Shown: piece after piece, positions 4,016 to 31,043 of the stretch | Layout of the letters: each line of letters begins with the position of its first letter | Position numbering within the stretch: position 1 is the first letter of the stretch | DNA from: Sphaerisporangium siamense | Lineage (GTDB): Bacteria; Actinomycetota; Actinomycetes; Streptosporangiales; Streptosporangiaceae | Length of the DNA: 64,000 nucleotides | Reading direction: 5' to 3' | Assembly: GCF_014205275.1 (NCBI RefSeq) | Contig: NZ_JACHND010000001.1 | Coordinates: 2,604,001-2,668,000 of the forward strand | The notes under the pieces: generated by a model | What the model saw: only the letters and a program-made list of their open reading frames with translations | Database searches by the model: none | Told to the model about the DNA's origin: nothing | Translations under genes and position numbers: made by a program

Positions 4016-4680
4016 GGCCCGCTCCGGCGTCCCGGATGCCCTTCTTTCGGGACTTCGGAGCACATTCGGCACATGTGTCACTTCAGTGACGCCGGGTGAG
4101 GTATCCCAGGTGGGACGACGGTGGTGATCCGGACATCCCGACCAAGGGAAGTGGGCGGGTAGTAAGGCGTGGCCGTCAGGTAATCCAGATGCGATCGTTC
4201 GGGCGCGTACTCTCCTCTATTTGGGTCGGTTGTGCGCCCCTGCGAGGGTCGGCGGCCGTTGGTACGGCCGCCTGGCGTCGTCGCGCGCGGGCGGCCCGCT
4301 GGAAGGGAGGTCTGTGCGTGCGGACGTGTCGCAGTCTCGCGACCGATCCTTCCCCCTTCGTTCCCCGCCTCTGTAGTACGCCGCCTTTATGGCGTTTTTG
4401 CGTCTGGTGCGAGCTTTGTCCCTAATGCGAACTTTGTCGCGGAGGTCAGAAGTGGCTCGCGGAGCGGACGGCAGCCCTTGTGTGCTGGGCGAACAGGCGG
4501 TCACCTGCCGGAAAGCGGAGGAAGACCGACTTGGTCTGCTACGGCGATGCCTGCAGCATGGGCGTGGCTTTCCTGGAACAATTGGTGAGACGGCTAAAGT
4601 GAATACTTCACCATGGATAACAGGATCGATAGTAAGACGACAGCGCGCCAGCCGGGGGGATCGGCGCGAGCGGAGGCGTG
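4016..4680. other. Long intergenic region upstream of the secretion cluster
   Basis: About 665 bp without a convincing gene. It holds a palindrome at 4077-4090 (GTCACT, two bases, AGTGAC); a terminator-like hairpin with a T-tract at 4378-4399 (ACGCC loop GGCGT then TTTT); two direct copies of GCGARCTTTGTC at 4409-4420 and 4427-4438; a strong GGAGGT (4441-4446) followed by GTG at 4452; and a dyad GTGAA-TAC-TTCAC at 4599-4611. A frame from GTG 4452 runs to 4775 but overlaps the next gene by 95 bp and loses third-position GC bias; a competing frame stopping at 4602 has better bias but no well-placed start. The region looks like a regulated leader for the downstream cluster. Confidence 0.5.
4378..4399 (+). 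terminator. Intrinsic terminator or attenuator-like hairpin
   Basis: ACGCC (4378-4382) pairs with GGCGT (4391-4395) across an 8-nt loop and is followed at once by a run of T, which is unusual in this GC-rich DNA. It lies about 360 bp after the penicillin-binding protein stop and about 50 bp before the GGAGGT element, so it may end upstream transcription or attenuate the secretion operon. The stem is short. Confidence 0.4.
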
Positions 4681-5697
4681 ATGGCTCGCAGGTCAAACGT
4701 CCAGCACGGTCCGCGGACCGCTGGCGAACCCGAGCATTCGACGTACCCTCCCTCGCCGTACGACCCCGACCCTGAGCGCGTGCCGGTGCGCAGGGGCGCG
4801 GTTCGCCGCGGCGGTTGGTCCGGTGGGGGCGGGCGTTGGCTGGTTTGGACGGGCAGGGTCGTCTTGTGGGCCCTGATCGTCGTCATCGTGGTCAACGGCG
4901 TGCGGGCGCCGATCGAACGGCTCACCGAGAGTGACACGCCCACGGGCACGACGGCGACCCCGACGGGTTCCGGTTTTCCCGAGGCGGCGGCCTCGGCGTT
5001 CGCGAGTCAGTTCGCGGCGGCGTACCTGAACTTCGACGGCGCGAAGCCGGACGAGCGCGCCGACCGGCTGAAGCCGTTCCTTCCCGAGGGCGCCGACCGT
5101 CAAATGGGGTGGAATGGTTTCGGCAGGCTGTCCGCCGGAACTTTCCAGCTATCGGACATCGAGGTGCAGGACGCGCAAAATGCCGTCGTAACGGTATTCG
5201 CGCAATCGGGATCGCAGCGCTGGAGGCTTTCCGTCCCGGTTTATACCGCGGATGGGAAATTCGTGGTTTCCGGCCAGCCGGCCCTGCTGCCCGCCGGCGG
5301 CCCCGCGGGCCTGCCCGCCACCGCCGAGCCGGAGCACGACGACACGGCGGAGGCCGAGCTGCGCCCGCAGCTCGAAAGCTTCTTCAAGGCCTACGCGCAG
5401 GGCGACGCCACACAACTGCAGCGGTACGTCGTCACGGGCGTCACGCTGGAGGGCTTCGGCAACAAGCTCACGCTGGAGGAGCTGAAGAGCGTCAGCGCCC
5501 CGCCCGGAGGGACCAGGCGCGAGGTCACCGCCGTCGTCGTGTGGGGCGTTCCCACGACGGCCACGCCGTCGCCGGTGCCGACCAATCCCGCCGCGCAGTC
5601 GGCGGGCCTGGAGCAGGCCTACCGTCTCACGGTCGAGAAGCAGGGCGACAACTGGTACATCAGGGACATCCGCGGCGCGACCCGGTCCACCGGATGA
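4681..5697 (+). CDS. TcpC/VirB8-like conjugal transfer family protein
   Basis: A 338-residue bitopic membrane protein. The ATG at 4681 sits 4 nt after GGAGG; a GTG three bases earlier is too close to that site. The N-terminus is cytoplasmic, basic and Gly/Pro-rich, one membrane helix spans about residues 54-74, and the rest is extracellular. Two tandem alpha/beta modules of the NTF2-like type (about residues 95-200 and 220-335) match the architecture known for TcpC and Orf13 of Tn916, the VirB8 counterparts of Gram-positive type IV secretion. Family knowledge places it in the membrane-wall part of the translocation channel. It heads a cluster in the order TcpC, TcpD, TcpE, VirB4, VirB6, wall hydrolase. 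Domain borders are estimates. Confidence 0.8.
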   Translation: MARRSNVQHGPRTAGEPEHSTYPPSPYDPDPERVPVRRGAVRRGGWSGGGGRWLVWTGRVVLWALIVVIVVNGVRAPIERLTESDTPTGTTATPTGSGFPEAAASAFASQFAAAYLNFDGAKPDERADRLKPFLPEGADRQMGWNGFGRLSAGTFQLSDIEVQDAQNAVVTVFAQSGSQRWRLSVPVYTADGKFVVSGQPALLPAGGPAGLPATAEPEHDDTAEAELRPQLESFFKAYAQGDATQLQRYVVTGVTLEGFGNKLTLEELKSVSAPPGGTRREVTAVVVWGVPTTATPSPVPTNPAAQSAGLEQAYRLTVEKQGDNWYIRDIRGATRSTG

Positions 5698-5799
5698 GGC
5701 CGGGAGCCGCCATGACGAGCGAGGGAGCCGAGAAGGTAACGCGACGACGCGGGACCCTGGAGCGGCCCGTCGGCGCGACCACAAGCAGGAGGACGGAAG

Positions 5800-6096
5800 T
5801 TGATTCTTAAGGTCATCGTTGAGAACGCGGTCGAGGCCCTGGCGCCCACGGCGCCGGCCACGCCGCCGCCCGCCGGGGTCAACACCGCGGGCCTCGCAGA
5901 CTTCCTGCGGAAGTTCTTCGCCCCGCTGTTCCTGGTCGTGGTGTCAGTCGTGGCGATTTTCTTCCTCTTCACGAGAGAGATCACCAGGTTCGTCCAGTTC
6001 ATCATTCTGGCCGTGGCCATCGGTGTGATCTTCTACGTGCCCAACGTCATCGAGGTGACGGCCAAGGCCATCGCGGGGGCGCTCGGCATCAAGTGA
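5800..6096 (+). CDS. Small two-helix membrane protein, TcpD-like position
   Basis: A 98-residue protein whose start is the rare TTG at 5800, fixed by an AGGAGG ribosome binding site (5787-5792) 7 nt upstream; no ATG or GTG fits. A Pro/Ala-rich N-terminal stretch is followed by two membrane helices (about residues 43-65 and 67-87, including FLVVVSVVAIFFLF and FIILAVAIGVIFYV) and a short tail. Size, topology and position between the TcpC-like and TcpE-like genes agree with TcpD of Clostridium perfringens pCW3-type systems. A VirB2/pilin-like subunit is another possibility that sequence alone cannot settle. Confidence 0.72.
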   Translation: MILKVIVENAVEALAPTAPATPPPAGVNTAGLADFLRKFFAPLFLVVVSVVAIFFLFTREITRFVQFIILAVAIGVIFYVPNVIEVTAKAIAGALGIK

Positions 6097-6134
6097 GCGT
6101 GATCGCGTGGCTGTGACTGGGAGAGGAGGATCGG

Positions 6135-9100
6135 ATGGACCTGCCTACCTATACCAATATCTGGCGAATTGAGAAGCGGCTCTACAAGCTGTACGACCTT
6201 CGGCTGCCGATGCCGCTTCCGATCGTCTGGGTCGGTGTGTTCCTGGGAGTGCTGGTCCCGTGGTCGGTCCTCCTGGCACTCGTCGGGGTCCCCTTCGAGT
6301 CGCCCTGGCACGTCCTCTTCATCGTGCCTCCGGGCATCGTCACCTGGCTGTCCACCCGTCCGGTGATCGAGAGCAAGCGGCTCAACGAGCTGCTCCAGTC
6401 GCAGATCCGCTACCTCGGCGAGCCGAAGACCTGGTGCCGCCTGGCGCCGGCCGAGGAGTCCGACGAGATCGCGTTCACGGCCAAGGTGTGGCGCGCGGCC
6501 CCGGGCACGGCCCGCCGCGCCGCCACGGTCAGCGTCAAGCCGTCCGCCGCCACGGCCGCGTCCGGGGCCGCCAAGTCCCGGCGCGGCACGCGGGCCAAGC
6601 CCAAGCACACCGCTCCCCGGCGCCGGCCCCTGGAGGCGTGGAGCTCCGCCGCCCGTCAGGCCCCGTCGCTGAAGCGGCGCGAGGCTCTGCCCGGCGAGGT
6701 CCGCCCCGCCGTGGCCGCGGTCACCACACTCCCGGTCTCCGAAGCCCCCGCCCTCGTCCCCGGCACCCGCACCCCCGAGCCGGTCAAGGAGCACGCCTCC
6801 GAGGCCGCCCACGAGCACGCCTTCGAGAGCACCCACGAGCACGCCTCCGAGGCCGCTCGGGAGCGCGTGTCCGAGGGCGCCCGCAAGCGTGTGCCCGAGG
6901 GTGTTCGCGAGCGCGCGTTCGAGGGCGCCCGGGAGCGTGTGCCCGAAGGGGCTCGGAGGCGCGGTTCGGAAGGGGCCGCAGGACGTCCGTCCCAGGGAAG
7001 CCGGGCGCGTGCGGGGGAAGGCGCCCGGGTGACTCTGACCGGGACGGCCCTGCCGCCCGGCGCCCAGATTCCAAGCCTGCCCCCCGCGCCGGGCCTGCCC
7101 CCCGCGCCGGGCCAGGTCCCCGCGCCGGGACGCGTGCCGGGGCGGCCGGTGGAAGGCCCCGCGCCGGAACGGCTCCCCGATGTGCTCCGCGGGGACCGTC
7201 TGGTGGCCTCCTCTCCGCCCGCCCTGCGCGAACCCGCCACCGACTCCCCGGCACACACCGGGGAATCCCCCGCCCCCGCTCACCCCGTCACGTCGAAGTC
7301 GGATGCCGAGCCTCCGACCCCGGTCGAGGAACCGCCCTCGGCCGCGGCCCCCGCGTCTACCGCACCCCCCGCGCCGACTGTGGCCTCTTCGGCGTCCGGG
7401 GCCGCTGTGGAGTCCTCACCAGCGGGTCCGACTTCCGAGGCTCAGCCGGAGGCGGGGCCGGTGCGGGAAGCCGGTGCTCCCGCGCCGATCGGGACGGAGG
7501 CGCTTCGCCGGCTGCGCAGGCTCGCGGCCTCCGCGGAGAACCGGGAGACGCTGGAACCGCGCACGGTCCCCAGCGAGTCCGAGCGCCTGGCGTCCCACGA
7601 GTGGCCCGAGCCGGGCCGTACGCTCCCGACGCCGTCCCACGACCGCGCCCTGCCCCCACCGCGGCTCGCCCCGGTCCCTCCCACCACCCCCTCCCAGGCA
7701 CCGGACCCGGCCGCCACTCCGGCACCTGAGTCGATCGCCACGCCCACTCCCGAGCTTGAGCCGGCCCCCGCTCCCGCGCCTGAGCCGGCCGACACTCCCG
7801 TGCCTGCACCGGCTGCCACGCCACCCCGTGTGACGGAGCCGACCACCACGCCGTCTCATGTGGCCGAGCCGACCACCACGCCGTCTCATGTGGCCGAGCC
7901 GACCACCACGCCCTCTCACATGACCGAGCCGGCCGTAACGCCCTCGCACGTGCCGGAGCCGGCGCGGGAGCCGGTTGTGCGGTCGTTGGAGCCGGTGGCC
8001 GAGGCGTCGCCTCGTGCGGCGGAGGTGGCCGCGGACGAGACGCGTGCCGGGGACGCCGCGCAGCGGTCTCCTGCCGAGACCCTCGGTAGCCGATCCGCCG
8101 AGACCCTGGCGGATGTTCCCCCCGAGACCCTTGGGGACGTTCCCGCCGAGACCTTGGGGGACGTGCCCGTCGAGGCGCGGGCGCCGCGTCGGAGCGGTGG
8201 GCTGGCGGTGGACGGGCGGGAGCAGCACCGCAAGGGGCAGCCGCCGCGCGCCGCGACGCCGCGCGAGCGGAGCCGCGAGGTGTTCGCCCCCCGCCCCGTC
8301 TCTCCCGGGCGCGAGGCGCCGCCCCTGTCGATCCGCGCGGTTCCGGCGGCGGGCGCCGGGGCGGACCCGGCGGTGCCGTCCGTGCCCGTGCCCGGTCCCC
8401 GGGCGGGCGGCGAGCCTCGCGTGCGGCGCGTCGAGTCCGTCGTCGGACGTGACCAGACGGGCGGCTGGCGCCGCCTGGCCCAGGTCGTCGTGGGCGGCGG
8501 GGCCCCGAGCCGCAACGACGGCATCGAGGCCGACGAGGCCCGCGCCAGGACCGTGCTCACCGGCAGCCGCCGCGTCGTCGTGCTCGGCTGCACGGGCGGG
8601 GCGGGGCAGACCATGACCACGCTGATGCTGGGCCACACCCTCGCCCGCTACCGCGAGGACCGCGTGCTCGCCGTGGACGCCAACACCGGCGAGAACACGC
8701 TCACCGGCCGTATCGCGGCCGACTCCCCCGAGACGCTGACCTCCCTGATGGCCGGGCTGGACGGCGTGAGCGGCTATCTGAGCATGCGCGCCTACACCAC
8801 CCGCTGCGAATCCGGCCTGGAGGTCGTCGGCGCGGACGCGGACGCCGGCGCCGCGCGCAGGCTCGCCGACCGCCGCCTGTTCTCCGACGAGCGCATCGCC
8901 CGCGCGATGCGGGTGCTCGACCGGCACTACCGGCTGATCCTGGTGGACCCCGCCGCGGCGGTGGCCGCGCGCATGCTGGCGTACGCCGACCAGCTCATCC
9001 TGGTGGCCCCGGCCAGCGAGGACGCCCCGGACGCGGTGGCGATGACCTTCGACTGGCTCGACGGGCAGACCACGGCCGAGCTGAGGCGGCGTTCGATCAT

Positions 9101-9347
9101 GGTGATCAACGGGGTCAGCCGCCGGAGCATGGCGGGTGTCGAGCAGGCGGAGGCGGTGGCCCGCGGCCGGTGCCGCGCGATCGTGCGCATCCCCTGGGAG
9201 GACGAGCTCGCCCCCGGGCGGCCCGGCCCCGCACAGCCGGAGCGGCTGCGGGCGGGAGCGCGCAGGGCGTACGTCGCCCTCGCGGGAGTTGTGGCAAGCG
9301 GCCTGGCGGCGGCGAGCCGCCCGAGCGAGGAGGAAGTGGCTCAGTGA
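6135..9347 (+). CDS. TcpE-like membrane domain fused through a long repeat linker to a MinD/ParA-like domain
   Basis: A 1070-residue fusion starting at the ATG at 6135 after GAGAGGAGGA. Residues 1-100 resemble TcpE: an opening DLPTYTNIWRIEKRLYKLYD, then two membrane helices (about 33-57 and 58-80). Residues ~120-790 form a Pro/Ala/Glu-rich linker containing an 8-residue repeat array (nt 6789-6980) and a 10-residue array (nt 7836-7955). Residues ~810-1060 form a MinD/ParA-type fold with RRVVVLGCTGGAGQTMTTL, AVDANTGENTL and YRLILVDPAAAV. Both lysines expected in the deviant Walker A are absent: T820 replaces the signature lysine and Q825 the P-loop lysine. ATP hydrolysis is therefore doubtful. 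It may tether a cytoplasmic positioning domain to the secretion channel; the fusion is clear, the function is inference. Confidence 0.78.
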   Translation: MDLPTYTNIWRIEKRLYKLYDLRLPMPLPIVWVGVFLGVLVPWSVLLALVGVPFESPWHVLFIVPPGIVTWLSTRPVIESKRLNELLQSQIRYLGEPKTWCRLAPAEESDEIAFTAKVWRAAPGTARRAATVSVKPSAATAASGAAKSRRGTRAKPKHTAPRRRPLEAWSSAARQAPSLKRREALPGEVRPAVAAVTTLPVSEAPALVPGTRTPEPVKEHASEAAHEHAFESTHEHASEAARERVSEGARKRVPEGVRERAFEGARERVPEGARRRGSEGAAGRPSQGSRARAGEGARVTLTGTALPPGAQIPSLPPAPGLPPAPGQVPAPGRVPGRPVEGPAPERLPDVLRGDRLVASSPPALREPATDSPAHTGESPAPAHPVTSKSDAEPPTPVEEPPSAAAPASTAPPAPTVASSASGAAVESSPAGPTSEAQPEAGPVREAGAPAPIGTEALRRLRRLAASAENRETLEPRTVPSESERLASHEWPEPGRTLPTPSHDRALPPPRLAPVPPTTPSQAPDPAATPAPESIATPTPELEPAPAPAPEPADTPVPAPAATPPRVTEPTTTPSHVAEPTTTPSHVAEPTTTPSHMTEPAVTPSHVPEPAREPVVRSLEPVAEASPRAAEVAADETRAGDAAQRSPAETLGSRSAETLADVPPETLGDVPAETLGDVPVEARAPRRSGGLAVDGREQHRKGQPPRAATPRERSREVFAPRPVSPGREAPPLSIRAVPAAGAGADPAVPSVPVPGPRAGGEPRVRRVESVVGRDQTGGWRRLAQVVVGGGAPSRNDGIEADEARARTVLTGSRRVVVLGCTGGAGQTMTTLMLGHTLARYREDRVLAVDANTGENTLTGRIAADSPETLTSLMAGLDGVSGYLSMRAYTTRCESGLEVVGADADAGAARRLADRRLFSDERIARAMRVLDRHYRLILVDPAAAVAARMLAYADQLILVAPASEDAPDAVAMTFDWLDGQTTAELRRRSIMVINGVSRRSMAGVEQAEAVARGRCRAIVRIPWEDELAPGRPGPAQPERLRAGARRAYVALAGVVASGLAAASRPSEEEVAQ
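6789..6980 (+). repeat. Array of eight 24-nt (8-residue) coding repeats
   Basis: Within the TcpE-MinD linker, eight degenerate units occur of the form EHASEAAH, EHAFESTH, EHASEAAR, ERVSEGAR, KRVPEGVR and so on. Early units are His-rich and acidic, later ones Arg-rich. The regular charge pattern suggests an extended helix or a flexible charged spacer. Confidence 0.85.
7836..7955 (+). repeat. Four 30-nt (10-residue) coding repeats
   Basis: Four units with consensus EPTTTPSHVA lie in tandem; the first three are nearly identical in DNA, which points to recent expansion. They form part of the proline-rich linker of the TcpE-MinD fusion. Confidence 0.88.
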
Positions 9348-9394
9348 CCACGCAGCGAGCCGAAGAGGTGGCTCAGTGACCACGCCGGGAGCCG
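9331..9394 (+). repeat. 32-bp tandem duplication at the MinD-VirB4 junction
   Basis: Positions 9331-9362 and 9363-9394 are near-identical, with GTGGCTCAGTGACCACGC at 9336-9353 and 9368-9385. The duplication makes two 11-codon frames, 9344-9379 and 9376-9411, each starting with the GTG of a GTGA overlap. The second ends in a TGATG overlap with the VirB4 start, so every stop from the fusion gene to VirB4 overlaps the next start. Confidence 0.8.
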
Positions 9395-9410
9395 GGGAGC
9401 GGGCGGCCTG

Positions 9411-11894
9411 ATGGGGAGGTCGTCGCGGTCGAGGAGCAGGCTGGCCGTGCGCTACTTCGACGATCGGATCCTTCTCACGGACTCCTCCGCATGGGCGTAT
9501 TTCCGGCTTCCGACGGTGAGCTATGAGTTCGTCACCCCGGAGGAGCGCGAGGCCCTCGCCACCAACATCACCATCGCGCTGGCCGCGATCCGCATGCCGG
9601 ACGCGGAGGTCCACCTGCGGGTCGCGCACCGGGCGTACCCGGCGGCCGAGTGGGCGATGGCGCTGAACGCGACCTCCGACGAGGGGGACGGCTGGCGCGA
9701 GTACCTGGAGGACATGTACCGCCACGTCTGGGCGAAGGACTTCTGGACCAAGGAGGTCTATCTCGGGGTCCGCCTCGGCCCGCGCGGCGCCCAGCTCGGT
9801 ACGGGCGTGCTGGCCCAGCTCTTCGGCCTCTACCAGCGCGGCGAGTCGGCGCTCGGCATGGAGGACGACCAGGTGCCGGCCGGCGAGATCACCAAGTGGA
9901 CCGACCAGGCGGAGCGCCTCGGCCGGGCGCTCGGCTCCAGCGCCCTGTACGCCCGGCACGCCACCTCCGGCGAGCTGGCCTGGCTGTTCCGGCACGCCGC
10001 CTCGGGTTCGCTCGGCGACCCGCCATCGTCGGCCACCCCGTCCAGGCGGTGGGGCAAGGGCGAGGTCGAGTCGCTGGTCGAGGGCCAGATCCACAACGGC
10101 AGGTCGTTCCTGCGCATCGAGCAGCCCACCGGCGACTCCTACGTGGCGCACCTGTCGTTCGCCCGGTTCCCCGACCTGATGCCGTTCCCGGACGGCGAGC
10201 CGTGGCTGCACTTCGTCGACCAGTTACCGTTCCCGGTCGAGGTCAGCTCGCGGATGCGCCTCATCCCGCCGGTGAAGGCGAGCAAGGACGTCGCGCGCAA
10301 GCTGGCCCACGCGCGGGACATGGACATCCACATTCGCGAGGCGGGAGCGGAGGCGCCGATCGCGCTGGCCGAGCAGATCGACGCGGCCCGCATGCTGGAG
10401 CACGGCATCACCAAGGAGCGCCTGCCGTTCGTGTACGGCTGGCACCGGCTGATCGTGGCCGCGCCGACCGAGGAGATGTGCGTGCAGCGGGTCGAGGCGG
10501 TGGTGGAGCACTACCGCGACATGGGCATCGACATCGTCAACTCGACCGGCGACCAGTTCTCGCTGTTCTGCGAGGCCCTGCCGGGCGAGAAGGTGCGGGT
10601 GAACGCCTACGCCCAGCGCCAGCCGCTGCGCACGATCGCGGGCGGCATGGCGACGGCCACCGTGGACCTCGGCGACCGCATCGACGAGAGCGGCGCCGGC
10701 TGGGCGGGGCCGTACATCGGGGAGACGCTGGGCCGTGCCCGGTCGATCGTCCACTTCGACCCGCTGGTGGCGGCGACGCGCAACCGGCCGACGGCCATCG
10801 CGATCACCGGGGAGCCGGGCGGCGGCAAGACGACGCTCGCGCTGCTGCTGATCTACCAGATGGCGCTGCGCGGGGTGACGGTCGCGGTGATCGACCCCAA
10901 GGGGGACGCCGAGTCGCTGGTGCAGCTGCTGCAGAAGCGGGGACGCAAGGCGCGGATCATCCCGCTGGGCTCGGCCGCCCCGGGCCTGCTCGACCCGTTC
11001 TCCTTCGGCGACGACATCGCCGCGAAGAAGACGATGGCCACCGAGACGCTGCGGCTGCTGCTGCCCCGCATGTCGGAGGAACGCGAGTCGGCGATGATCC
11101 AGGCCGTCTCGACGGTGTCCAACGGGGCCGACCCGTCGCTGGGGAAGGTCGTCGACCACCTGGAGCAGTCGGAGGATCCGGCGTCCAAGAACCTGGGCGC
11201 GGTGCTGCGGTCGATGGCCGAGATGCACCTGGCCCGGCTGTGCTTCGACCCCTCCGGCGGCGACCAGATCGACAGCGAGGGCTGGACCACCGTGTTCACC
11301 CTCGGCGGGCTCACCCTGCCCGACGTCGCGACCGCCCGCGACGACTACTCCTACGAGCAGCGGCTGTCGGTGGCCCTGCTGTACCTGGTGTCGCAGTTCG
11401 CGCGGCGCCTGATGAACGGGCTCGACCGCCGCGCCCCGAAGGCGATCTTCCTGGACGAGGCGTGGGCGATCACCTCGACGCCCGAGGGCGCCAAGCTCGT
11501 CCCGGAGGTCTCCCGCATGGGCCGGTCGCGCAACACCGCGCTCGTGCTCGTCTCGCAGAACGCCGGCGACCTGCTCAACGAGCAGGTGACCAACTGTCTC
11601 TCCTCGGTGTTCGCCTTCCGCTCGACCGAGCGGGTCGAGGTCGACAGCGTGATGGCGCTGCTCGGCGTCGAGGCGTCCGAGGAGCACAAGGGGGCGCTGC
11701 GGTCGCTGGGGAACGGCGAGTGCGTCTTCCGCGACCTCGACGGACGTGCGGGGCGCATCGGCGTCGATCTGATCTCGGAGGAGTTGCTGCGTTGGCTGGA
11801 TACCAATCCGACCCACGACAAACCCGACGAGAGCATGCATGATCCTCGTGGGCGAGCGAGTAGGTCGGCGGCTGCGCAGGAGGTGCGGTCATGA
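9411..11894 (+). CDS. VirB4/TcpF-like type IV secretion ATPase
   Basis: An 827-residue ATPase starting at ATG 9411, overlapping a micro-ORF stop by one base. The N-terminal ~400 residues form the variable VirB4/TraC N-domain. The C-terminal RecA-like domain has Walker A GEPGGGKTT (K473), AVIDPKGD shortly after, and Walker B AIFLDEAW (D682, E683), followed by VLVSQNAGDLLN, typical of VirB4/TraG-type motors. Such hexameric ATPases act at the inner face of the membrane and energise channel assembly or substrate movement. It overlaps the next gene by ATGA. All nucleotide-binding residues look intact, unlike those of the upstream MinD-like domain, so this is probably the main motor of the cluster. 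Confidence 0.9.
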   Translation: MGRSSRSRSRLAVRYFDDRILLTDSSAWAYFRLPTVSYEFVTPEEREALATNITIALAAIRMPDAEVHLRVAHRAYPAAEWAMALNATSDEGDGWREYLEDMYRHVWAKDFWTKEVYLGVRLGPRGAQLGTGVLAQLFGLYQRGESALGMEDDQVPAGEITKWTDQAERLGRALGSSALYARHATSGELAWLFRHAASGSLGDPPSSATPSRRWGKGEVESLVEGQIHNGRSFLRIEQPTGDSYVAHLSFARFPDLMPFPDGEPWLHFVDQLPFPVEVSSRMRLIPPVKASKDVARKLAHARDMDIHIREAGAEAPIALAEQIDAARMLEHGITKERLPFVYGWHRLIVAAPTEEMCVQRVEAVVEHYRDMGIDIVNSTGDQFSLFCEALPGEKVRVNAYAQRQPLRTIAGGMATATVDLGDRIDESGAGWAGPYIGETLGRARSIVHFDPLVAATRNRPTAIAITGEPGGGKTTLALLLIYQMALRGVTVAVIDPKGDAESLVQLLQKRGRKARIIPLGSAAPGLLDPFSFGDDIAAKKTMATETLRLLLPRMSEERESAMIQAVSTVSNGADPSLGKVVDHLEQSEDPASKNLGAVLRSMAEMHLARLCFDPSGGDQIDSEGWTTVFTLGGLTLPDVATARDDYSYEQRLSVALLYLVSQFARRLMNGLDRRAPKAIFLDEAWAITSTPEGAKLVPEVSRMGRSRNTALVLVSQNAGDLLNEQVTNCLSSVFAFRSTERVEVDSVMALLGVEASEEHKGALRSLGNGECVFRDLDGRAGRIGVDLISEELLRWLDTNPTHDKPDESMHDPRGRASRSAAAQEVRS

Positions 11895-14479
11895 GACTTC
11901 ATGAGCCGGGCGGGCTAGGCGAGGGACGGTGGTGGTCCGGCGGGGCCACCGCGATGGCCCGGGTGTTCCGGGCGGTGTGCGAAGGGGCGGTGCGGGCCGC
12001 CACGCCGGTGCGTGCGACGGCCGGGCTGGCCGCGCCGGTGAAGGTGCCGAAGCGTGCCACGCGCTCGCGCGGGTCCAGGCTGCGGCGCAGGGTTCTGGTG
12101 GTGTTGGCGCTGCTGGTCGGCGTGATCGTGGTCCCGATCGCCTTCTCGCCGACCGTCGCGGGCGCGGCGGGGCCGTGCGACCTGTCCCCGGACCTGGCTC
12201 CGGAGATGGTCGGCGGCAGCGTGGACGGCCTCGTGAAGCCGCCTCCCGCGGAGATCCCCTCCGTGTCGCCGACCACGGCGCCGAAGCCGCTGCCTCCGGG
12301 CGCGGTGTCCGGCACCACCTCGCAGGGCGTCGTGAACCCCACGACGAACTACGAGCGGTACGGCATGGCCGGCCAGTTCTGGCACACCTACGAGCTGGGC
12401 TGCACCGACGTGGCGGCCGTGCTCGGCAACGCGTGGGCCAACACGGTCTTCCTGTGGGCCAAGGCCATCGACCGGATGACGATCACGACGTACGAGGCGG
12501 CGGCCACCGAAGGACCGCTCCAGTCCATCAAGGACGTCGTCGACGACATCATCACCAACCTGGCCAACGCCATGTACTGGCCGTACCTGCGGGTGATCAT
12601 CCTGCTGGCGGCGGTGTGGCTGGCGTGGTACGGGCTCATCAGGAAGCGGGCCAGCACCACGGCCGAGGGCGTCATCTGGATGATCCTCGCCGTCGTGGCC
12701 GCCGTGTGGTTCTTCAGCCGCCCCGGCGACTTCACCGGGCTCGGCAAGACCGTCACCGACAAGACGGCCGAGGTGGTCAACTCGGCGTTCAGCGGGCTGC
12801 CCGGGTCGGGCGGGGCGTCGTGCCTGCCGGTCAAGGGGCAGACCGGCGCCAAGGCCGCGCCCGGCGGGTACGGCCAGAACGGCACGCCCGGCGTCGCGCA
12901 GAACGCCGACGCGCTGTGGTCCACGCTGGTGTGCAAGCCGTGGCTGATGGGCGAGTTCGGCACCGCGGACGCCAAGTCGCCGATCGTGGCGACCATGGGG
13001 CCGAAGCTGCTCGACATACAAGCCACGGACCTGCAGGAACAGAACTCGGGGGAGAAGTCCACCTCCACCGCCCACCAGGCGCGCTACGAGGAGGAACTCG
13101 CCAAACCCTTGAAGAGCACGCCCATGTTCTTCCTCTTCCAAGGAAAGGACTGGACGAGCAGGCTCGGCATCGCCATCGGCGCGCTGCTGGCCGCCCTGGT
13201 CGCCGGCGTGCTGATCTTCTTGGTGGCGGTCTCGCTCATCGCGCTCAAGATCGGCTTCCTGTTGCTGCTGATCCTCGGCCCGGTGTTCCTGCTGATCGGC
13301 GTCCATCCCGGTTCGGGGCGCATCATCGCCATGCGCTGGGTCGAGATGCTGGTCGGCACGCTGCTGCGGCAGGCCGTGCTGGCCCTCGTGCTGGGCGTAC
13401 TCGTGTACGGCTATTCGCTGATCATCGCGACCGAGCTGCCATGGGGCATGCAGATCATGTTCATCGCGTTGCTGACGATCGCGGTGTTCTTCTACCGGCG
13501 CCCCTTCCAGCACCTTTTCGCCTCCATGGACGGGCACACGCTCACCACGCGCATGCTCGGCGAGGCCGCCTCGGCGCCCACGTTGCAGCGGGCCGCGAAC
13601 GTGCTGCCCCCGGTGGCGGCGGCCCGTATGGGCCGCTGGGGCCTGCGCAAGGCCGAGCCGGTCATGCACGCGGCCGCGATGGCCACGGGCGCGTCCGCGG
13701 CCGTCGCGGCGGCCGGGGGGGTGGCGCAGGGCCGCGTGCGGGGCGAGGACGTCACCCCGGGCGCCGCGCAGCAGACCGGCACCCGGGTGCAGGTGGGCGC
13801 GCAGCCCACTCCGCTGGACCCCGACGGCCAGGCGGGCGTGCGCCGCAAGGCGACCGGGCGCGGCGCGGCGGTCCCGCGGCCGGGCGCGGCCCCGCCGCTC
13901 AACCTCAACGGGCGTCCGGGCGGCGCCGCGGGCACGGCCGGGCGTGCCGGAGCCGGGGCGGCTCCCCGTACGGGCGCGCGGACGGGCACCGGCGGCGCGG
14001 CCGCGGGCGGCTCAGGTTCCACGGGCGGCTGGTTCGGCGGCGGCCCAGGGCGCGGGCCCCGGCCCTCTTCCGGTGGCTCCTCGGGCGGGTCGTCAGGAGG
14101 CGCCTCGGGCGGTTCGGCGCCGCGGGCCCCGCGTTCGACGGCCGGCGGTCCCCGCGGCCTGCTCGGTGGTGGTGGCGGTGGCGGCGGGTCCTCCTCGCGG
14201 GGCTCGGGCGGCTCCTCCCGTGCTTCGGGCGGTTCCGCGCGGAGTTCGGGCGGCGGGTCGTCGCGCGGGTCCTCCGGAGGGTCCTCCCGGTCCGGGAGCG
14301 GCATCTTCGGCAGCTCGAACGGCAACGGCAACGGCTCCCGCGACCGCGGGGCCGGGTGGTTCGGCGGGCGTTCGGGCTCTGACGAGGCGCCGCCGCTGTG
14401 GCTGCCCCCGCGCCAGGACGGCGGACGCTCCGAGGACGCGCCCTTCTGGCTGCGACCCGGCGACGGCGACAAGGACTGA
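11891..14479 (+). CDS. VirB6/TrbL/TcpH-like polytopic channel protein with Gly/Ser-rich tail
   Basis: An 862-residue protein translationally coupled to VirB4 (ATGA overlap, GGAGGTG about 5 nt upstream). A basic N-terminus precedes a hydrophobic segment (about residues 70-95) resembling a signal or first membrane helix that ends in AGAAGPCDL. Several further helices lie at about 230-280 and 430-555, including a long hydrophobic block with LLLLILGPVFLLIGVHPG. That pattern is characteristic of VirB6/TrbL proteins, which form the inner-membrane channel. From about residue 620 the protein is low complexity, becoming extremely rich in Gly, Ser, Ala and Arg from about 680 and ending in an acidic 40-residue tail. 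Long hydrophilic extensions are known for TcpH-type proteins, but this composition is unusual. Confidence 0.85.
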   Translation: MRLHEPGGLGEGRWWSGGATAMARVFRAVCEGAVRAATPVRATAGLAAPVKVPKRATRSRGSRLRRRVLVVLALLVGVIVVPIAFSPTVAGAAGPCDLSPDLAPEMVGGSVDGLVKPPPAEIPSVSPTTAPKPLPPGAVSGTTSQGVVNPTTNYERYGMAGQFWHTYELGCTDVAAVLGNAWANTVFLWAKAIDRMTITTYEAAATEGPLQSIKDVVDDIITNLANAMYWPYLRVIILLAAVWLAWYGLIRKRASTTAEGVIWMILAVVAAVWFFSRPGDFTGLGKTVTDKTAEVVNSAFSGLPGSGGASCLPVKGQTGAKAAPGGYGQNGTPGVAQNADALWSTLVCKPWLMGEFGTADAKSPIVATMGPKLLDIQATDLQEQNSGEKSTSTAHQARYEEELAKPLKSTPMFFLFQGKDWTSRLGIAIGALLAALVAGVLIFLVAVSLIALKIGFLLLLILGPVFLLIGVHPGSGRIIAMRWVEMLVGTLLRQAVLALVLGVLVYGYSLIIATELPWGMQIMFIALLTIAVFFYRRPFQHLFASMDGHTLTTRMLGEAASAPTLQRAANVLPPVAAARMGRWGLRKAEPVMHAAAMATGASAAVAAAGGVAQGRVRGEDVTPGAAQQTGTRVQVGAQPTPLDPDGQAGVRRKATGRGAAVPRPGAAPPLNLNGRPGGAAGTAGRAGAGAAPRTGARTGTGGAAAGGSGSTGGWFGGGPGRGPRPSSGGSSGGSSGGASGGSAPRAPRSTAGGPRGLLGGGGGGGGSSSRGSGGSSRASGGSARSSGGGSSRGSSGGSSRSGSGIFGSSNGNGNGSRDRGAGWFGGRSGSDEAPPLWLPPRQDGGRSEDAPFWLRPGDGDKD

Positions 14480-14481
14480 GG

Positions 14482-15132
14482 GTGGCGCGTATCAGCGACC
14501 GGCGGGGGCTCGTCTTCGCCGGAGTGGTCGTCGCCATCGCGGCCGTCGGCGTCTACCTGTCCGTGCGGTCGGCCTCCGACGGTTCGGAGGAACCCCGCCC
14601 GACCGCCGGGGCCGTGGTCTCCACGGCCCCGGCCGCCCCCTCCTCCGGCGGGCGCACCCCGTCGCCGGTCAAGTCGGGGGCGTTCGACATCTACGCCTAC
14701 CTACCGCTGTCGAAGGACCAGATCGCCCAGGCGGCGGACGCGGCGCAGCGGTTCGCCGTCTCGTACGCGACCTACCGCTGGGACGAGGACCCGGCGTCCT
14801 ACGCCGAGCGGCTGAAGGCGTTCACGACCGCCGAGCTCGGCACCGTGCTCGCCAGGGACGTGACCTCCCCGGCGACCGTGGAGCGCAACCGCGCCGACCA
14901 GGTCGTCTCTGAGGGCTCCTCCCGGTTGAAGGAGATCCGCGACATCGCGGGCGGGTCGGTCGTGTTCGTGGTGACCGCCGTCCAGCGCATCACGGCCAAG
15001 AGCGGCCCGCAGGAACGCGGCACCGACTACGCCGTCACGCTCACCCAGGTGGGCAGCCAGTGGCAGGTGTACGACATGCAGCCCGCGGAGGCCGGCCAGG
15101 ACGGAGACCCGGGCGGGGGGACGGTGGAGTGA
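14482..15132 (+). CDS. Second VirB8/TcpC-like membrane protein
   Basis: A 216-residue protein from the GTG at 14482, 6 nt after AAGGA and two bases past the previous stop. A single membrane helix (about residues 9-28) is followed by a Ser/Pro-rich spacer and an extracellular domain of about 145 residues, starting at FDIYAYLPLSKDQIAQAADA and ending in GTDYAVTLTQVGSQWQVYDM. That ending strand pattern fits the NTF2-like VirB8/TcpC fold with only one module. Its stop overlaps the start of the wall-hydrolase gene (GTGA). Having two VirB8-like proteins suggests a heteromeric periplasm-equivalent collar; this is inferred from fold similarity and context. Confidence 0.72.
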   Translation: MARISDRRGLVFAGVVVAIAAVGVYLSVRSASDGSEEPRPTAGAVVSTAPAAPSSGGRTPSPVKSGAFDIYAYLPLSKDQIAQAADAAQRFAVSYATYRWDEDPASYAERLKAFTTAELGTVLARDVTSPATVERNRADQVVSEGSSRLKEIRDIAGGSVVFVVTAVQRITAKSGPQERGTDYAVTLTQVGSQWQVYDMQPAEAGQDGDPGGGTVE

Positions 15133-16214
15133 CGTCGCGCGTACGCATCGCCCTGCTCATCGGCCTGGCCGGGGTCGTGCTGGTCACGCTGGTGATGGCG
15201 CCGATGCTGATGAGCACGTTCCCCGCCTTCCTCGGCGCGGGCGGCGGGGCCGCCGACTGCGCGGACGACACGTTGAAGGTGACGAACGTCTCCGACACCG
15301 CGCAGTCGGACATCCCCCGCGACTACCTGGAGCTCTACAAGAAGTGGGGCAAGAAGACCGGCGTGCAGTGGACCGTGCTGGCCGCCGTCGGCAAGCGCGA
15401 GACCGACCACGGACGCTCGAACCTGCCCGGCGTGAAGGGCGGGACGAACTACGCGGGCGCCGCGGGCCCGATGCAGTTCCTGATCAGCACGTGGGGCGGC
15501 AAGGCCAAGATCAAGATCCCGTCGAAGTTCAACGGCTACGCCTCCGACGGCGACGAGGACGGCTGGGCCGACGTCTACAACCCGGCGGACGCCATCCTGG
15601 GCGCGGCGAAGATGCTCAAGCGCAACGGCGCCCCCAGCGACCTGACCCGCGCCCTCTTCGTCTACAACCACGCGATGTGGTACGTCGAGCAGGTCCTGCA
15701 GATCGCCCGCCGCTACGCCGTGGACGGCACGCTGGAGGTCCCGCCCGAGGCCGACCCCGCGTGCGACCCGCCGCTTGTCGACGCGGCCCCGACGGACGTC
15801 GTCAAGAAGATCATGGAGTACGCCCTGGCCCAGCGCGGCAAGCCGTACGTCTGGGGCGGGACGGGCCCGCACGGGTACGACTGCTCGGGCATCATCTACA
15901 TGGCCTACCGCGCGGCCGGGCTGTCGATCCCGCGGACCACCTTCGGCCAGTGGCCCTTCGGCATGAAGATCGGCAAGGGCAAGGAGCAGGCGGGCGACCT
16001 GGTGTTCTTCAACGCGGGTCCGGGCACGTCCGCCGACAATCCCGGCCACGTCGGCATGGTGGTCTCGCCGGGCAAGATGATCGAGGCCCGCTGCACGCTC
16101 TGCGGCCCGATCAAGGTGACGACCTACCGCGACCGCCCCAACATCATCGGCTACACGCGTCCCCTCGAAAACCCAACCGTCGTAGAACAGCTCAAGAGGC
16201 TCGGCCTTACGTAG
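15129..16214 (+). CDS. Secreted lytic transglycosylase plus NlpC/P60 endopeptidase
   Basis: A 361-residue bifunctional wall hydrolase, started at the GTG at 15129 that overlaps the upstream stop. An N-terminal membrane helix (about residues 6-28) anchors or exports it. A lysozyme-like transglycosylase domain (about 60-200) has the catalytic glutamate in GKRETDHG (E91) and GPMQFLISTWG. A C-terminal NlpC/P60 domain (about 220-350) has the nucleophile in YDCSG (C252) and the histidine in GHVGMV (H307). It should cleave both glycan and stem peptide. Tn916 Orf14 and TcpG/TcpI have the same job: opening the wall for the secretion channel. It ends the cluster. Confidence 0.9.
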   Translation: MTSRVRIALLIGLAGVVLVTLVMAPMLMSTFPAFLGAGGGAADCADDTLKVTNVSDTAQSDIPRDYLELYKKWGKKTGVQWTVLAAVGKRETDHGRSNLPGVKGGTNYAGAAGPMQFLISTWGGKAKIKIPSKFNGYASDGDEDGWADVYNPADAILGAAKMLKRNGAPSDLTRALFVYNHAMWYVEQVLQIARRYAVDGTLEVPPEADPACDPPLVDAAPTDVVKKIMEYALAQRGKPYVWGGTGPHGYDCSGIIYMAYRAAGLSIPRTTFGQWPFGMKIGKGKEQAGDLVFFNAGPGTSADNPGHVGMVVSPGKMIEARCTLCGPIKVTTYRDRPNIIGYTRPLENPTVVEQLKRLGLT

Positions 16215-16284: not shown

Positions 16285-16674
16285 ATGGAGAAGATTGTTG
16301 TGGCGGCGGTCATCGTCGAGGAGGGCAGGGTTCTCGCGGCCCAGCGGGCCCGGCCCCCGGAGATGGCGGGGGGATGGGAGTTCCCCGGCGGCAAGGTCGA
16401 CCCTGGTGAGAGCGACGAGCAGGCGTTGGTCCGGGAGTGCCGGGAGGAGCTGGGAGTCGCGATCTCCGTGGGGGAGAGGGTCGGCGGGGACTGGCCGCTG
16501 AGCCCGGGGTATGTCCTGCGCGCCTCGTTCGCCCGGCTCGTCTCCGGGGTCCCGCACCCTCACGAGCACTTGGCGCTGCGCTGGCTGCGCCGTGACGAAC
16601 TCTTCGACATCCCTTGGCTTCCCGCCGACCTTCCCATCGTCGAAGCCGTACAAGATCTGATCCCCGAGGGTTGA
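16285..16674 (+). CDS. MutT-like Nudix hydrolase
   Basis: A 129-residue protein starting MEKIVVAAVIVEEGRVLAAQ. The Nudix box begins at G36 (GGKVDPGESDEQALVRE) and is completed by CREELGV at residue 58, so all metal-binding glutamates are present. Size and the WEFPGGK motif match MutT-type 8-oxo-(d)GTP diphosphatases, which clean the nucleotide pool, although other nucleoside triphosphates are possible substrates. A small dyad AGACT-CCTT-AGTCT at 16263-16276 precedes the start, and TAGTCT within it could act as a -10 element for a leaderless mRNA. It is not clearly part of the preceding secretion operon. Confidence 0.88.
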   Translation: MEKIVVAAVIVEEGRVLAAQRARPPEMAGGWEFPGGKVDPGESDEQALVRECREELGVAISVGERVGGDWPLSPGYVLRASFARLVSGVPHPHEHLALRWLRRDELFDIPWLPADLPIVEAVQDLIPEG

Positions 16675-18851: not shown

Positions 18852-18894
18852 GAAGAGTGTTGCTAAACGCCCGTTACTGTTACTTTTGCCAATC

Positions 18895-18900
18895 TAGGAT
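18895..18900 (+). promoter_or_regulatory. Candidate -10 element before the second surface protein
   Basis: TAGGAT fits TAnnnT and lies in an AT-richer stretch (18865-18900), with TTACTG (18874-18879) as a weak -35 and a 15-nt spacer. The downstream gene starts at 18944 after GGAGGG. This is a suggestion based on consensus only. Confidence 0.3.
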
Positions 18901-18943
18901 TGCCTTTGGTGCGGCAGAAGTCGGTTTCAGGCGGAGGGCAACG

Positions 18944-20035
18944 GTGAATGGACGCGCGCGTGTGACGACCGTGTCCGCGGTCGTCGCCTCGTTAGGGTTG
19001 ACGGGCGCCGTGCTTCTCGCGACGGCGCCCTTGACCTCTCCCCGGGCGAACGCGGCGCAGGCGGCCCTGGCCGATCCGACCCAGGTGGTCGAGCCCAGCG
19101 ACCCGACGATCACCGACATCCCGGAGGAGCCGCAGGAGGAGCCGGAGCCCACCGTGACGGTGACGATCACGGAGAGCCCCGACCCGACGGTCACCAAGAC
19201 CCGCACGGTCACCCCGAAGCCGCGCACGACGACCAAGTCCCCGAAGCCCCCCAAGCCGTCGGCGACGAAGACCACGCCGATCGCGCCCCCGCCGACGCAG
19301 GAGCCCCTCCCCACGGCCGCGCCGGTGATCCCCACGAACCAGCCGATCGTGCCGAGCCCCGAGCCGACGCCCGAGGCCTCCACCCCTGACCCCCAGGTGA
19401 TGCTGGAGCTGGCCTCGCCCACGCCGACGCCGACACCGGACGTCTCCGAGCCGGCGAACATGGCCTTCGAGGATCCGACGCCCGACTCGGTGCCCATCGT
19501 GATCCGCAAGGCGTCGCCGGAGTACGACCAGCTCACGCTGAGCAGGAAGCTGGCCATTCCCGGGGTGCTGCTGGCCGTGCTGGTGATGCTCGGCGTGCTG
19601 ATCTTCGAGGGCCGGCTCCGCAGGATGGCGCACGCGGCGGCCGTCCAGAAGGCCGGGCCGCGCGTGCCCGGCCGGCACCGTGGCGACTTCCCGGGGGCCT
19701 ACCCCATGCCGGGCCAGCCCATCTACCACGCGGGCACGACGTACGCGCCGATCATCAGCTTCGTCCCGGTGCACGGCTACCCGGCCGCGCCCTACCAGGA
19801 CCCGTACGCCGGCTTCTATGACCCGGCGACCGGGATGCCGATGACGCCCGGGCAGACGGTCCCGCCCGCGGGCCCGGCCGACCCGTGGCCCCGCGCCGAC
19901 GCGACCGCGACCTTCCCCATGACCGGGCAGACGCCGCCCGTGGCGCCCCAGGGGCAGGTTCCCGGCGAGCAGGCCACCACCGTGCAGGGCCCGCTGCCCA
20001 AGCCCAAGCGCCGCGGCCTGTTCCGCCGCTCCTGA
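18944..20035 (+). CDS. Secreted single-pass membrane protein with Pro/Thr-rich ectodomain and Pro-rich cytoplasmic tail
   Basis: A 363-residue protein; the GTG at 18944 lies 5 nt after GGAGGG and begins VNGRARVTTVSAVVASLGLT. A signal peptide is visible to about residue 38 (RANAAQAA). The ectodomain is rich in Pro, Thr and acidic residues with PEPTVTVTITESPDPTVTKT-like repeats. A membrane helix (about 205-226, IPGVLLAVLVMLGVLIF) is followed by a ~135-residue cytoplasmic tail rich in Pro, Gly and Tyr and ending in basic PKPKRRGLFRRS. It follows a similar surface protein gene by 92 bp. The tail could bind cytoplasmic partners. No known family is recognised. Confidence 0.7.
   Translation: MNGRARVTTVSAVVASLGLTGAVLLATAPLTSPRANAAQAALADPTQVVEPSDPTITDIPEEPQEEPEPTVTVTITESPDPTVTKTRTVTPKPRTTTKSPKPPKPSATKTTPIAPPPTQEPLPTAAPVIPTNQPIVPSPEPTPEASTPDPQVMLELASPTPTPTPDVSEPANMAFEDPTPDSVPIVIRKASPEYDQLTLSRKLAIPGVLLAVLVMLGVLIFEGRLRRMAHAAAVQKAGPRVPGRHRGDFPGAYPMPGQPIYHAGTTYAPIISFVPVHGYPAAPYQDPYAGFYDPATGMPMTPGQTVPPAGPADPWPRADATATFPMTGQTPPVAPQGQVPGEQATTVQGPLPKPKRRGLFRRS

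Positions 20036-29117: not shown

Positions 29118-29121
<4 letters not shown>
28357..29121 (+). CDS. sdhC: Succinate dehydrogenase cytochrome b subunit (second operon)
   Basis: A 254-residue membrane anchor of the five-helix cytochrome b558 type found in Bacillus/Wolinella-type complex II. Helices include [18 protein letters not shown] (its histidine is a candidate heme ligand), a second with [14 protein letters not shown], a third with [17 protein letters not shown], and a fourth with [19 protein letters not shown]. The repeated helix histidines fit two b hemes. The ATG at 28357 is preferred, but 28387 is possible; neither has a clear ribosome binding site and the mRNA may be leaderless. Its stop overlaps the sdhA GTG. 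Confidence 0.88.

Positions 29122-31039
<1,918 letters not shown>

Positions 31040-31043
<4 letters not shown>

Follow-up and report, generated by a model that had tools for sequence, protein, structure and literature searches.

In ICEBs1, the genes conB-conG/cwlT follow the same order as seven consecutive genes of a 64,000-nucleotide stretch of the Sphaerisporangium siamense chromosome, which was analysed here as a whole (hereafter the window). With ICEBs1, Tn916 and pCW3 (Tcp), this cluster shares TcpC, TcpE, a TcpF-type VirB4, a VirB6-like protein and an SLT + NlpC hydrolase. Unlike these elements, it has no MOBT relaxase, no dedicated TcpA that we could find and no integrase among the scanned window proteins, and it is non-mobile. 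Two Bacilli plasmids, from Niallia (CP137637) and B. licheniformis (CP035190), show by annotation an identical succession of gene types, and we could confirm TcpC, TcpE, VirB6 and the hydrolase of the Niallia plasmid by Pfam. VirB4 of the cluster is 29% and 32% identical to the VirB4s of these two plasmids. However, the plasmids differ from the cluster by a DUF87 coupling-type ATPase and a Replic_Relax protein encoded just upstream, neither of which was found at the cluster, by an extra gene of ~146 aa between VirB4 and VirB6, and by a short TcpE without MinD where the cluster encodes a TcpE-MinD fusion.

Nearly all known functions of Gram-positive type IV secretion systems (T4SSs) are in DNA translocation, which section 22 of PMC12857230 calls surprising. 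MOBless T4SSs, which are chromosomal and devoid of a relaxase, are proposed in the passages of Guglielmini 2011 (PMC3158045) that deal with them to be mostly protein transporters. The cluster shares with the systems described in these passages its chromosomal location and the lack of a relaxase, but stands apart as one family-universal lineage with a MinD-like fusion; the main text of PMC3158045 names none of Streptosporangium, Thermobifida, Thermomonospora and Nocardiopsis. In Streptomyces, deletions in the chromosomal cmdABCDEF genes (SCO4126-4131) disturb branching, septation and chromosome segregation, and sporulation is affected (PMC2782261). Like the cluster, cmdABCDEF combines a chromosomal VirB4-like ATPase with membrane partners (PMC2782261); unlike the cluster, it belongs to the SCO6880/SCO6881-type branch of T4SSs, has a short ATPase and is not orthologous. 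The T4SSs of Patescibacteria resemble the cluster in being monoderm, chromosomal and mostly without relaxase, according to the parts of PMC12102498 and PMC12857230 (section 22) devoted to them, whereas the Southlakia system has VirD4-like and VirB2-like parts (PMC12857230 section 22) and no VirD4-like protein was found for the cluster. A T4SS for which neither relaxase nor VirD4 was detected, and which is present in every family genome searched, offers a tractable case for non-conjugative roles of these machines.

Composition and layout of the cluster

By using Pfam and NCBIfam models together with the counterparts in the Niallia plasmid, we confirmed the seven-gene T4SS core that a preliminary description had recognized at 4681..16214. 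The features of the locus and its surroundings are:

4546..4680, + strand: putative promoter/leader with palindrome-like elements, a GGAAC block and a TANNGT (-10-like) box, abutting tcpC
4681..5697, + strand: TcpC/VirB8-like membrane protein (PF12642, E 4.6e-18; one predicted membrane segment)
5800..6096, + strand: TcpD-like protein, 98 aa (two predicted membrane segments; hhalign counterpart in the Niallia plasmid)
6135..9347, + strand: fusion of TcpE and a MinD/ParA-like domain, 1070 aa (PF12648, E 4.9e-19; alignments; AlphaFold2 model)
9411..11894, + strand: VirB4 ATPase (AAA_10/VirB4, PF12846, E 5.9e-68; Walker A and B intact)
11891..14479, + strand: VirB6-like polytopic protein (seven predicted membrane segments; Gly/Ser-rich low-complexity tail)
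14482..15132, + strand: second TcpC/VirB8-like protein, a small membrane protein (weak Pfam TcpC match; Niallia counterpart by position)
15129..16214, + strand: membrane-anchored two-domain wall hydrolase, SLT transglycosylase plus NlpC/P60 endopeptidase (SLT_2, 2.2e-6; NLPC_P60, 2.4e-19)
16285..16674, + strand: NUDIX hydrolase, a neighbour (Pfam)
16752..18851, + strand: Sec1, a fast-evolving secreted or anchored neighbour, not assigned to the machine
18857..20035, + strand: Sec2, a membrane or secreted neighbour, not assigned to the machine

The ATG at 4681 is the conserved start of tcpC, with the GTG at 4678 as a possible alternative, and TcpC matched PDB 3ub1 weakly (E 0.0027). The VirB4 motifs GGGKTT and FLDEAW were present in all 15 aligned rows, and VirB4 matched the NCBIfam TcpF ATPase with an E of 2.8e-73 and 247 bits, against a curated cut-off of 1100. 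In an alignment of 92 sequences, some of which share a genome, each of the presumed catalytic residues of the hydrolase (E91, C252 and H307) was conserved in at least 98%.

Three genes gave weaker matches. First, the TcpD-like protein reached the NCBIfam TcpD model at E 0.019 only; it could be aligned with the 73-aa protein at the equivalent position of the Niallia plasmid, with an hhalign probability of 97.5. Second, VirB6 remained sub-threshold with both Pfam TrbL/VirB6 (E 3.1e-5, 24.3 bits, cut-off 25.9) and the NCBIfam CD3337/EF1877 membrane protein NF046089 (E 1.8e-22, 79.8 bits, cut-off 120), and matched the VirB6 at the equivalent position of the Niallia plasmid by BLASTP (1e-11). Third, the second TcpC-like protein was sub-threshold with Pfam TcpC (E 0.0024, 18.1 bits, cut-off 27), and 5 of its 24 aligned members matched TcpC at E <= 0.01. 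This protein paired with the Niallia protein at the equivalent position (hhalign probability 87.9) and not with the Niallia TcpC itself (probability 1.2). We accepted these three genes because of their positional counterparts in the Niallia plasmid.

The genes had been described as mostly coupled by stop-start overlaps, which was overstated: of the six junctions, VirB4/VirB6 and TcpC2/SLT alone are overlaps, both of 4 nt, one is a 2-nt gap, and the genes at the other three lie 102, 38 and 63 nt apart. Judged from its sequence, the cluster, which unites an intact VirB4 with TcpC, TcpE, VirB6 and a wall hydrolase, would qualify as a Gram-positive apparatus of the Tcp/Tn916 type (MPF_FA). In a tree built without the curated MPF_FA reference set and with CmdB left out, VirB4 formed its own clade (100/100) next to a poorly supported sister group (76/58), the Bacilli plasmids being a separate clade.

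In the 1070-aa product of the TcpE gene, a long Pro/Ala-rich linker connects a TcpE domain (aa 5-102) to a MinD/ParA-like domain (aa ~790-1070); an AlphaFold2 model had a pLDDT of 89.4. All 27 aligned chromosomal copies lack both ATP-binding lysines of the MinD-like domain. This domain had not figured in the earlier reading, made from the sequence only.

Inheritance in the Streptosporangiaceae

A patchy distribution had been named in the preliminary description as an observation adverse to a resident machine. We looked for it and found VirB4 in 25/25 and 41/41 family genomes, that is in all 61 distinct ones, with 75-100% identity. We infer the family searched to be the Streptosporangiaceae, to which the genera of the 80 relative loci considered below presumably belong. 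Among the full-length VirB4 matches listed for 353 other genomes of the class, none exceeded 32% identity. The class-wide searches covered 394 genomes, taken in a single even draw, and those for VirB4 and for SCO6880-type proteins scored two or three candidates per genome, the weakest matches being left out.

All 20 relatives compared first had the seven genes in an identical arrangement. The locus counts that follow rest on the best 80 of 286 relatives, a set that includes the genomes of nine of these 20. Among them, the order was kept in all 63 loci with sufficient sequence (60 by BLAST and three in which the VirB6 frame was read by eye), ychF/rmuC/ispH lay upstream in 54 of 63 loci and sdhA/B downstream in 55 of 64. 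The housekeeping flank upstream was also found in 10 of 16 loci counted separately from these 80. In agreement with the earlier view of the neighbours as ordinary chromosomal genes, the flanking genes identified are housekeeping genes (ispH, rmuC, ychF, sdhBA and NUDIX). The synteny check that had been proposed thus returned one chromosomal gene order across relatives with recurring housekeeping flanks, and these conserved flanks argue against a recent insertion.

Over 57 loci, the mean distance was 0.117 for VirB4 versus 0.136 for YchF, and the two sets of distances were correlated (Spearman 0.75; 0 of 999 permutations as high). Neither YchF nor SdhA, both encoded nearby, diverged more slowly than VirB4. 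In three comparisons, VirB4 had a dN/dS of 0.07-0.13, and no other gene of the machine exceeded 0.50. As reported before, no relaxase, coupling protein or integrase is visible in the window: Pfam revealed none among 39 proteins scanned (38 of the 44 picked ORFs, six being left out, plus TcpD), and the 64-kb window contains no tRNA. The marks of an ICE looked for, an integrase in these proteins and a patchy distribution in the family, were both missing.

Taken together, sequence comparisons give good support to the view that the cluster is a resident, vertically inherited chromosomal T4SS without a nearby relaxase, of the MOBless or domesticated type. The earlier suggestion of a domesticated system is borne out by family-wide presence, fixed gene order, recurring flanks, divergence that tracks the neighbours, purifying selection and, in the S. 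siamense genome, the lack of matches over cut-off for VirD4 and the relaxase families searched. Parts of the machine can still move, since Nocardiopsis plasmids carry close relatives of it.

Partners and possible function of the machine

A relaxase or coupling protein encoded outside the window had also been named as adverse evidence. In the S. siamense genome, no match over cut-off was obtained for VirD4 (PF02534) or for the MOBT (PF02486), MOBF (PF08751) and MOBP (PF03432) relaxases, and the best Replic_Relax (PF13814) match was sub-threshold (21.7 bits, cut-off 25.3). MOBT PF02486 was found in 0/25 family genomes, and a VirD4 gene and a Replic_Relax gene passed their cut-offs in 3/16 family genomes each. 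We read the PF01580 matches of S. siamense as FtsK, two EccC-like frames and three FtsK/SpoIIIE-type genes, none of which lies near the cluster. A phage-type integrase is encoded close to each of these last three genes, and a RepSA gene is present at two of their loci, which is why we regard them as AICE-like. Thus, neither a relaxase (four models) nor a VirD4/TcpA protein of the cluster (PF02534, PF01580) was found, although the AICE-like genes could in principle act as coupling proteins.

We hold it to be reasonably probable that the cluster is a resident, vertically inherited, non-conjugative T4SS of the Tcp/Tn916/ICEBs1 type, with protein export or local wall opening in hyphal growth and sporulation as its most likely job; its residency is well supported, and its function is what we infer. 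In the ancestor of the Streptosporangiaceae, a conjugation module would have become fixed in the chromosome without relaxase and coupling protein. VirB6, TcpD and TcpE would form its membrane part, VirB4 its power source and the two VirB8-like proteins its wall-crossing part, while the SLT-NlpC/P60 enzyme would open the peptidoglycan locally. The MinD-like domain, deprived of its ATP-binding lysines and membrane-tethered via TcpE, may work as a static adaptor for docking or positioning in the place held by the coupling ATPase in conjugative systems, and the pseudo-MinD fusion hence suggests a specific, testable substitute for the coupling protein. As one divergent relative (L049) keeps the machine with no detectable MinD domain, the adaptor would be dispensable in at least one lineage. 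Protein secretion by the machine is possible, and its timing in hyphal growth and sporulation is suggested by analogy with the non-orthologous Cmd, the closest precedent in terms of function. The family is large, filamentous and mostly spore-forming, and lives freely in soil. A narrower version, in which this family core-genome T4SS uses the TcpE-fused degenerate MinD instead of a coupling ATPase and serves, independently of Cmd, as a developmental wall-opening exporter or conduit at hyphal tips or septa, is tentative and rather doubtful.

The two secreted proteins encoded downstream, once proposed as substrates, proved to be poor candidates, and we rejected them as general substrates. Both have two predicted membrane segments and evolve fast (dN/dS of 0.59-0.62 for Sec1 in two comparisons, the third giving no match, and 0.41-0.75 for Sec2). 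Moreover, among the relatives with the same machine, the eight that diverge most (L042-L049) yielded neither protein within 2.3-3.9 kb 3' of the hydrolase gene. Among the best 80 of 286 relatives, Sec1 was found in 20 of 64 loci and Sec2 in 63 of 64. The NUDIX gene, present in 64 of 64 such loci with sufficient downstream sequence, probably lies outside the machine.

The machine could instead import DNA or exchange it between cells, as do Ced/Ted of archaea or ComB of Helicobacter, likewise devoid of relaxase or VirD4. Ced/Ted are described, in the part of PMC9905601 on them, as domesticated T4SSs with VirB4-, VirB6- and VirB2-like parts and a VirC1/ParA-like gene near Ted, ComB is presented without VirD4 in section 20 of PMC12857230, and the 98-aa TcpD with its two predicted membrane segments would suit such a role. 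However, the cluster is collinear with plasmid modules that are presumed exporters because they bear a relaxase-type gene, and its identified flanking genes are housekeeping ones, so that we find an importer unlikely. We take rmuC to be a DNA recombination gene and the sole neighbour touching DNA.

Conjugation in trans, in which other mobile elements of the cell would supply the substrate through their FtsK/TraB-type or relaxase genes, seems quite improbable to us. The three AICE-like FtsK/SpoIIIE-domain genes, found besides FtsK and the two EccC-like frames, and the VirD4 and Replic_Relax genes of some family genomes would provide partners, but the latter are patchy where the machine is universal, and an evolution as slow as that of YchF is hardly expected of a helper for occasional guests.

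That the cluster is the Streptosporangiaceae ortholog of cmdABCDEF is very improbable. The chromosomal gene set is similar, the cmd deletions have a developmental phenotype (PMC2782261), and mutants of the lytic transglycosylase tgdA overproduce the same pigment, as stated in the relevant part of PMC6585502. Yet the cmdB-like ATPase that we found, presumably from Streptomyces, is distant (475 versus 827 aa, about 24% identical, E 1.5e-4, hhalign probability 30). Its neighbours are of the SCO6880/SCO6881 type and matched neither TcpC nor TcpE in Pfam, and the S. siamense genome gave no SCO6880-type match. With so distant an ATPase and different partners, we rejected simple orthology with Cmd.

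Finally, a decaying integrative conjugative element, to which the missing relaxase and coupling protein might point, is hardly credible and was refuted by universality, synteny and purifying selection, along with intact catalytic motifs and no integrase (scanned proteins) or tRNA in the window.

Putative promoter of the cluster

The 135 nt preceding tcpC are conserved: in 91 of 135 columns, at least 80% of 73 non-redundant upstream regions have the nucleotide of the window, whereas only 17 of 119 columns of the adjoining stretch further upstream reach the same level. Rfam returned no known structured RNA in positions 1-24000 of the window (no match up to E 0.5). The conserved region preceding tcpC may be a promoter or leader, and its combined motif occurs a single time in the 8.5 Mb genome, allowing up to 3 mismatches.

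A resident type IV secretion cluster

By using Pfam and NCBIfam profile searches, we found the seven-gene type IV secretion (T4SS) core present in the window (G000:C1:2604001-2668000 of the 8.5 Mb genome of S. siamense) as the preliminary description had claimed.

4681..16214, + strand: TcpC, TcpD-size protein, TcpE, VirB4, VirB6, small TcpC-like protein and SLT-NlpC/P60 hydrolase, in this order
16752..18851, + strand: Sec1, secreted/membrane neighbour
18857..20035, + strand: Sec2, secreted/membrane neighbour

Two points of that description required correction. The stop-start overlaps ascribed to most of the genes occur at only two of the six junctions, and the tcpE product is a 1070-aa fusion whose C-terminal part is a MinD/ParA-like domain. 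Genome-wide, VirB4 alone exceeded the AAA_10 cut-off; a second, weak match lay within the gene with the best FtsK_SpoIIIE match. TcpD, VirB6 and the second TcpC-like protein scored weakly against their families and have counterparts, by position and sequence, in a Niallia plasmid (CP137637). In the hydrolase, at least 98% of 92 aligned sequences share residues E91, C252 and H307.

The cluster is resident, not mobile, as had been proposed. First, VirB4 was present at 75–100% identity in 25/25 and 41/41 genomes of two Streptosporangiaceae samples (family assignment inferred; 61 distinct genomes, five shared), so that the patchy strain distribution expected of an integrative element was looked for and not seen. 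A genome from a second family of the order has it too, at 82% identity; in the three genomes of a third family, it was absent from one and gave only partial matches, up to 29%, in two. Among the matches listed for 353 class genomes outside the family, with two candidates scored per genome, the best full-length match reached 32%.

Second, the gene order is kept in 20/20 relatives and in all 63 named loci with enough flank (60 by BLAST, three by a VirB6 frame read by eye), nine of the 20 relatives being in both sets. Third, the flanks recur: among the best 80 of 286 named relatives, upstream genes that we take to be ychF, rmuC or ispH (named by eye from sequence, without a family scan) were found in 54 of 63 loci, as in 10 of 16 further loci, and sdhA or sdhB lay downstream in 55 of 64. 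The most divergent relative (L049) has the same flanking genes; the window itself differs upstream, with a penicillin-binding protein and a TetR gene. Fourth, the pairwise distances of VirB4 correlate with those of YchF (Spearman 0.75, 57 loci) and, over 34 loci, with those of SdhA (0.84); in either case 0/999 permutations were as high. VirB4 divergence does not exceed that of YchF (means 0.117 vs 0.136) or SdhA (0.098 vs 0.117). Since the three genes are linked, this agreement reflects common descent of the locus, not of two independent loci. TcpC is far more divergent (mean 0.42–0.43); in three comparisons VirB4 had a dN/dS of 0.07–0.13, and no other machine gene exceeded 0.50.

The 135 nt immediately before tcpC are also conserved, with 91/135 columns at 80% or more across 73 non-redundant loci and only 17 of the preceding 119 columns. 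This region holds a TANNGT box and palindrome-like elements, and the genome has a single copy of the combined motif. Since the loci are related, such conservation shows constraint without pointing to which factor binds.

Around the locus, we noted a CHASE3 histidine kinase adjoining a response regulator-SpoIIE-type phosphatase fusion ~8 kb downstream of the cluster (24336–27094), and a second succinate dehydrogenase/fumarate reductase-type flavoprotein of 818 aa ~6 kb from the sdhBA pair (28587–31043). In Nonomuraea gerenzanensis (L055), the resident cluster lies on an 11.85 Mb replicon (NZ_LT559118) filed as a plasmid, which looks like a chromosome.

Relaxases, coupling proteins and plasmid relatives

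The reported lack of a relaxase and coupling protein extends to the whole genome for the families searched: there was no match to T4SS-DNA_transf (VirD4), Rep_trans/MOBT, TrwC/MOBF or Relaxase/MOBP, and Replic_Relax gave one sub-threshold match (21.7 bits, cut-off 25.3). Ten FtsK_SpoIIIE pieces exceeded the cut-off, in FtsK, a 1439-aa frame (three) and a 1555-aa frame (two), both read as EccC, and three smaller genes (four). The latter sit in AICE-like elements, stretches that also hold a phage-type integrase (3/3), RepSA (2/3) and a GntR-type regulator (2/3). One such row of GntR regulator, FtsK/TraB-type gene, RepSA and phage-type integrase lies at G000:C1:2338000-2354000 (L069). In some relatives, a second, distant VirB4-like match lies ~3 kb or less from a Replic_Relax gene at another locus (G002:C3, G013:C410); such loci are apparently separate, patchy mobile systems.

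The Niallia plasmid and a Bacillus licheniformis plasmid (CP035190) share the gene set and order of the cluster, and both carry a DUF87 ATPase and a Replic_Relax protein ahead of the machine genes. The Niallia DUF87 protein just passed the cut-off for one coupling-protein domain, TrwB (21 bits against 20.5), and stayed below that for TraG. Given this shared order and the counterparts of the weak members, the cluster resembles a module of this kind in which the machine half stands alone and the DNA-loading half is missing. In a 34-row VirB4 tree, the cluster clade was supported (100/100), its sister group was poorly supported and the Bacilli plasmids formed a separate clade, so any assignment of the module to a source is tentative.

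Two Nocardiopsis plasmids, L053 (NZ_CP099838) and L054 (NZ_CP080600), carry VirB4s 71–74% identical to that of the cluster, along with TcpC, TcpE, VirB6, SLT and a MinD gene separate from TcpE. Their VirB4s nest within the chromosomal clade beside three family genomes (100/100), which suggests that they escaped from the chromosome rather than gave rise to its cluster. No relaxase was found among ten scanned proteins of one plasmid (101 annotated features).

The MinD-like domain of TcpE

TcpE and MinD parts share a single frame in 19/19 relatives and in 64 of the 65 named loci having both; L049 keeps the seven-gene order and TcpE, with no MinD-like domain detected. Each of the 27 chromosomal copies in the alignment has Gln in place of the P-loop lysine, and Thr (26) or Ser (1) in place of the signature lysine. 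L048, whose domain aligned only in part, was excluded and has the same kind of motif. The free-standing MinD of both Nocardiopsis plasmids keeps both lysines. The domain is modelled confidently (pLDDT 89.4), and the nearest solved structures by sequence are VpsO, BceF and McdA-type ATPases. We infer that it acts as a scaffold or adaptor and does not cycle ATP.

The open literature yielded no prior description of the family-wide system among the matches listed. Chromosomal T4SSs without a relaxase are an established concept (PMC3158045), and the cluster is thus of a known kind; what appears new in the literature covered is this lineage, its universal presence and the pseudo-MinD fusion.

Candidate substrates and role

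Sec1 and Sec2, put forward as substrate candidates, are unsupported as such: their dN/dS is 0.41–0.75, and neither was detected in the 2.3–3.9 kb searched downstream of the cluster in L042-L049, the eight loci that diverge most. Sec2 adjoins the cluster in 63/64 named loci of nearer genera (among the best 80 of 286).

As an analogy, Streptomyces cmdABCDEF offers the best functional precedent. In PMC2782261, deleting cmd genes is reported to upset branching, septation and chromosome segregation and to leave plasmid transfer unchanged (data not shown there); a type IV-like channel is named by its authors as a possibility to be investigated. A cmdB-like locus, located by the published primer motif, occurs in 11/394 genomes, all of one genus. 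It encodes a short ATPase (~24% identity to the cluster VirB4, hhalign probability 30) alongside SCO6880/SCO6881-type partners; a TraG-like match there stayed sub-threshold. Since this ATPase is short and distant and its partners are others, the cluster and Cmd are analogous at most. SCO6880-type matches were found in 39/39 genomes of that locus's family and 23/41 of Streptosporangiaceae, and none in S. siamense in a profile search of the class-wide sample. Because mobile systems match this model as well, these are not counts of cmd.

Our preferred reading is that the machine would export a protein, or open the wall locally, during hyphal development. Systems without VirD4 are known in two-step protein export or DNA uptake, and pilus elaboration has been proposed (PMC12857230). 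DNA exchange is a rival reading, and the domesticated archaeal Ced/Ted systems transfer DNA (PMC9905601); in-trans mobilisation is another.

Finally, the primer pair printed as CmdB K404 in PMC2782261 spans the P-loop motif, and the labels of the two mutants may be swapped; in a Streptomyces-type relative (L207:5312-6736), the P-loop lies near residue 90.
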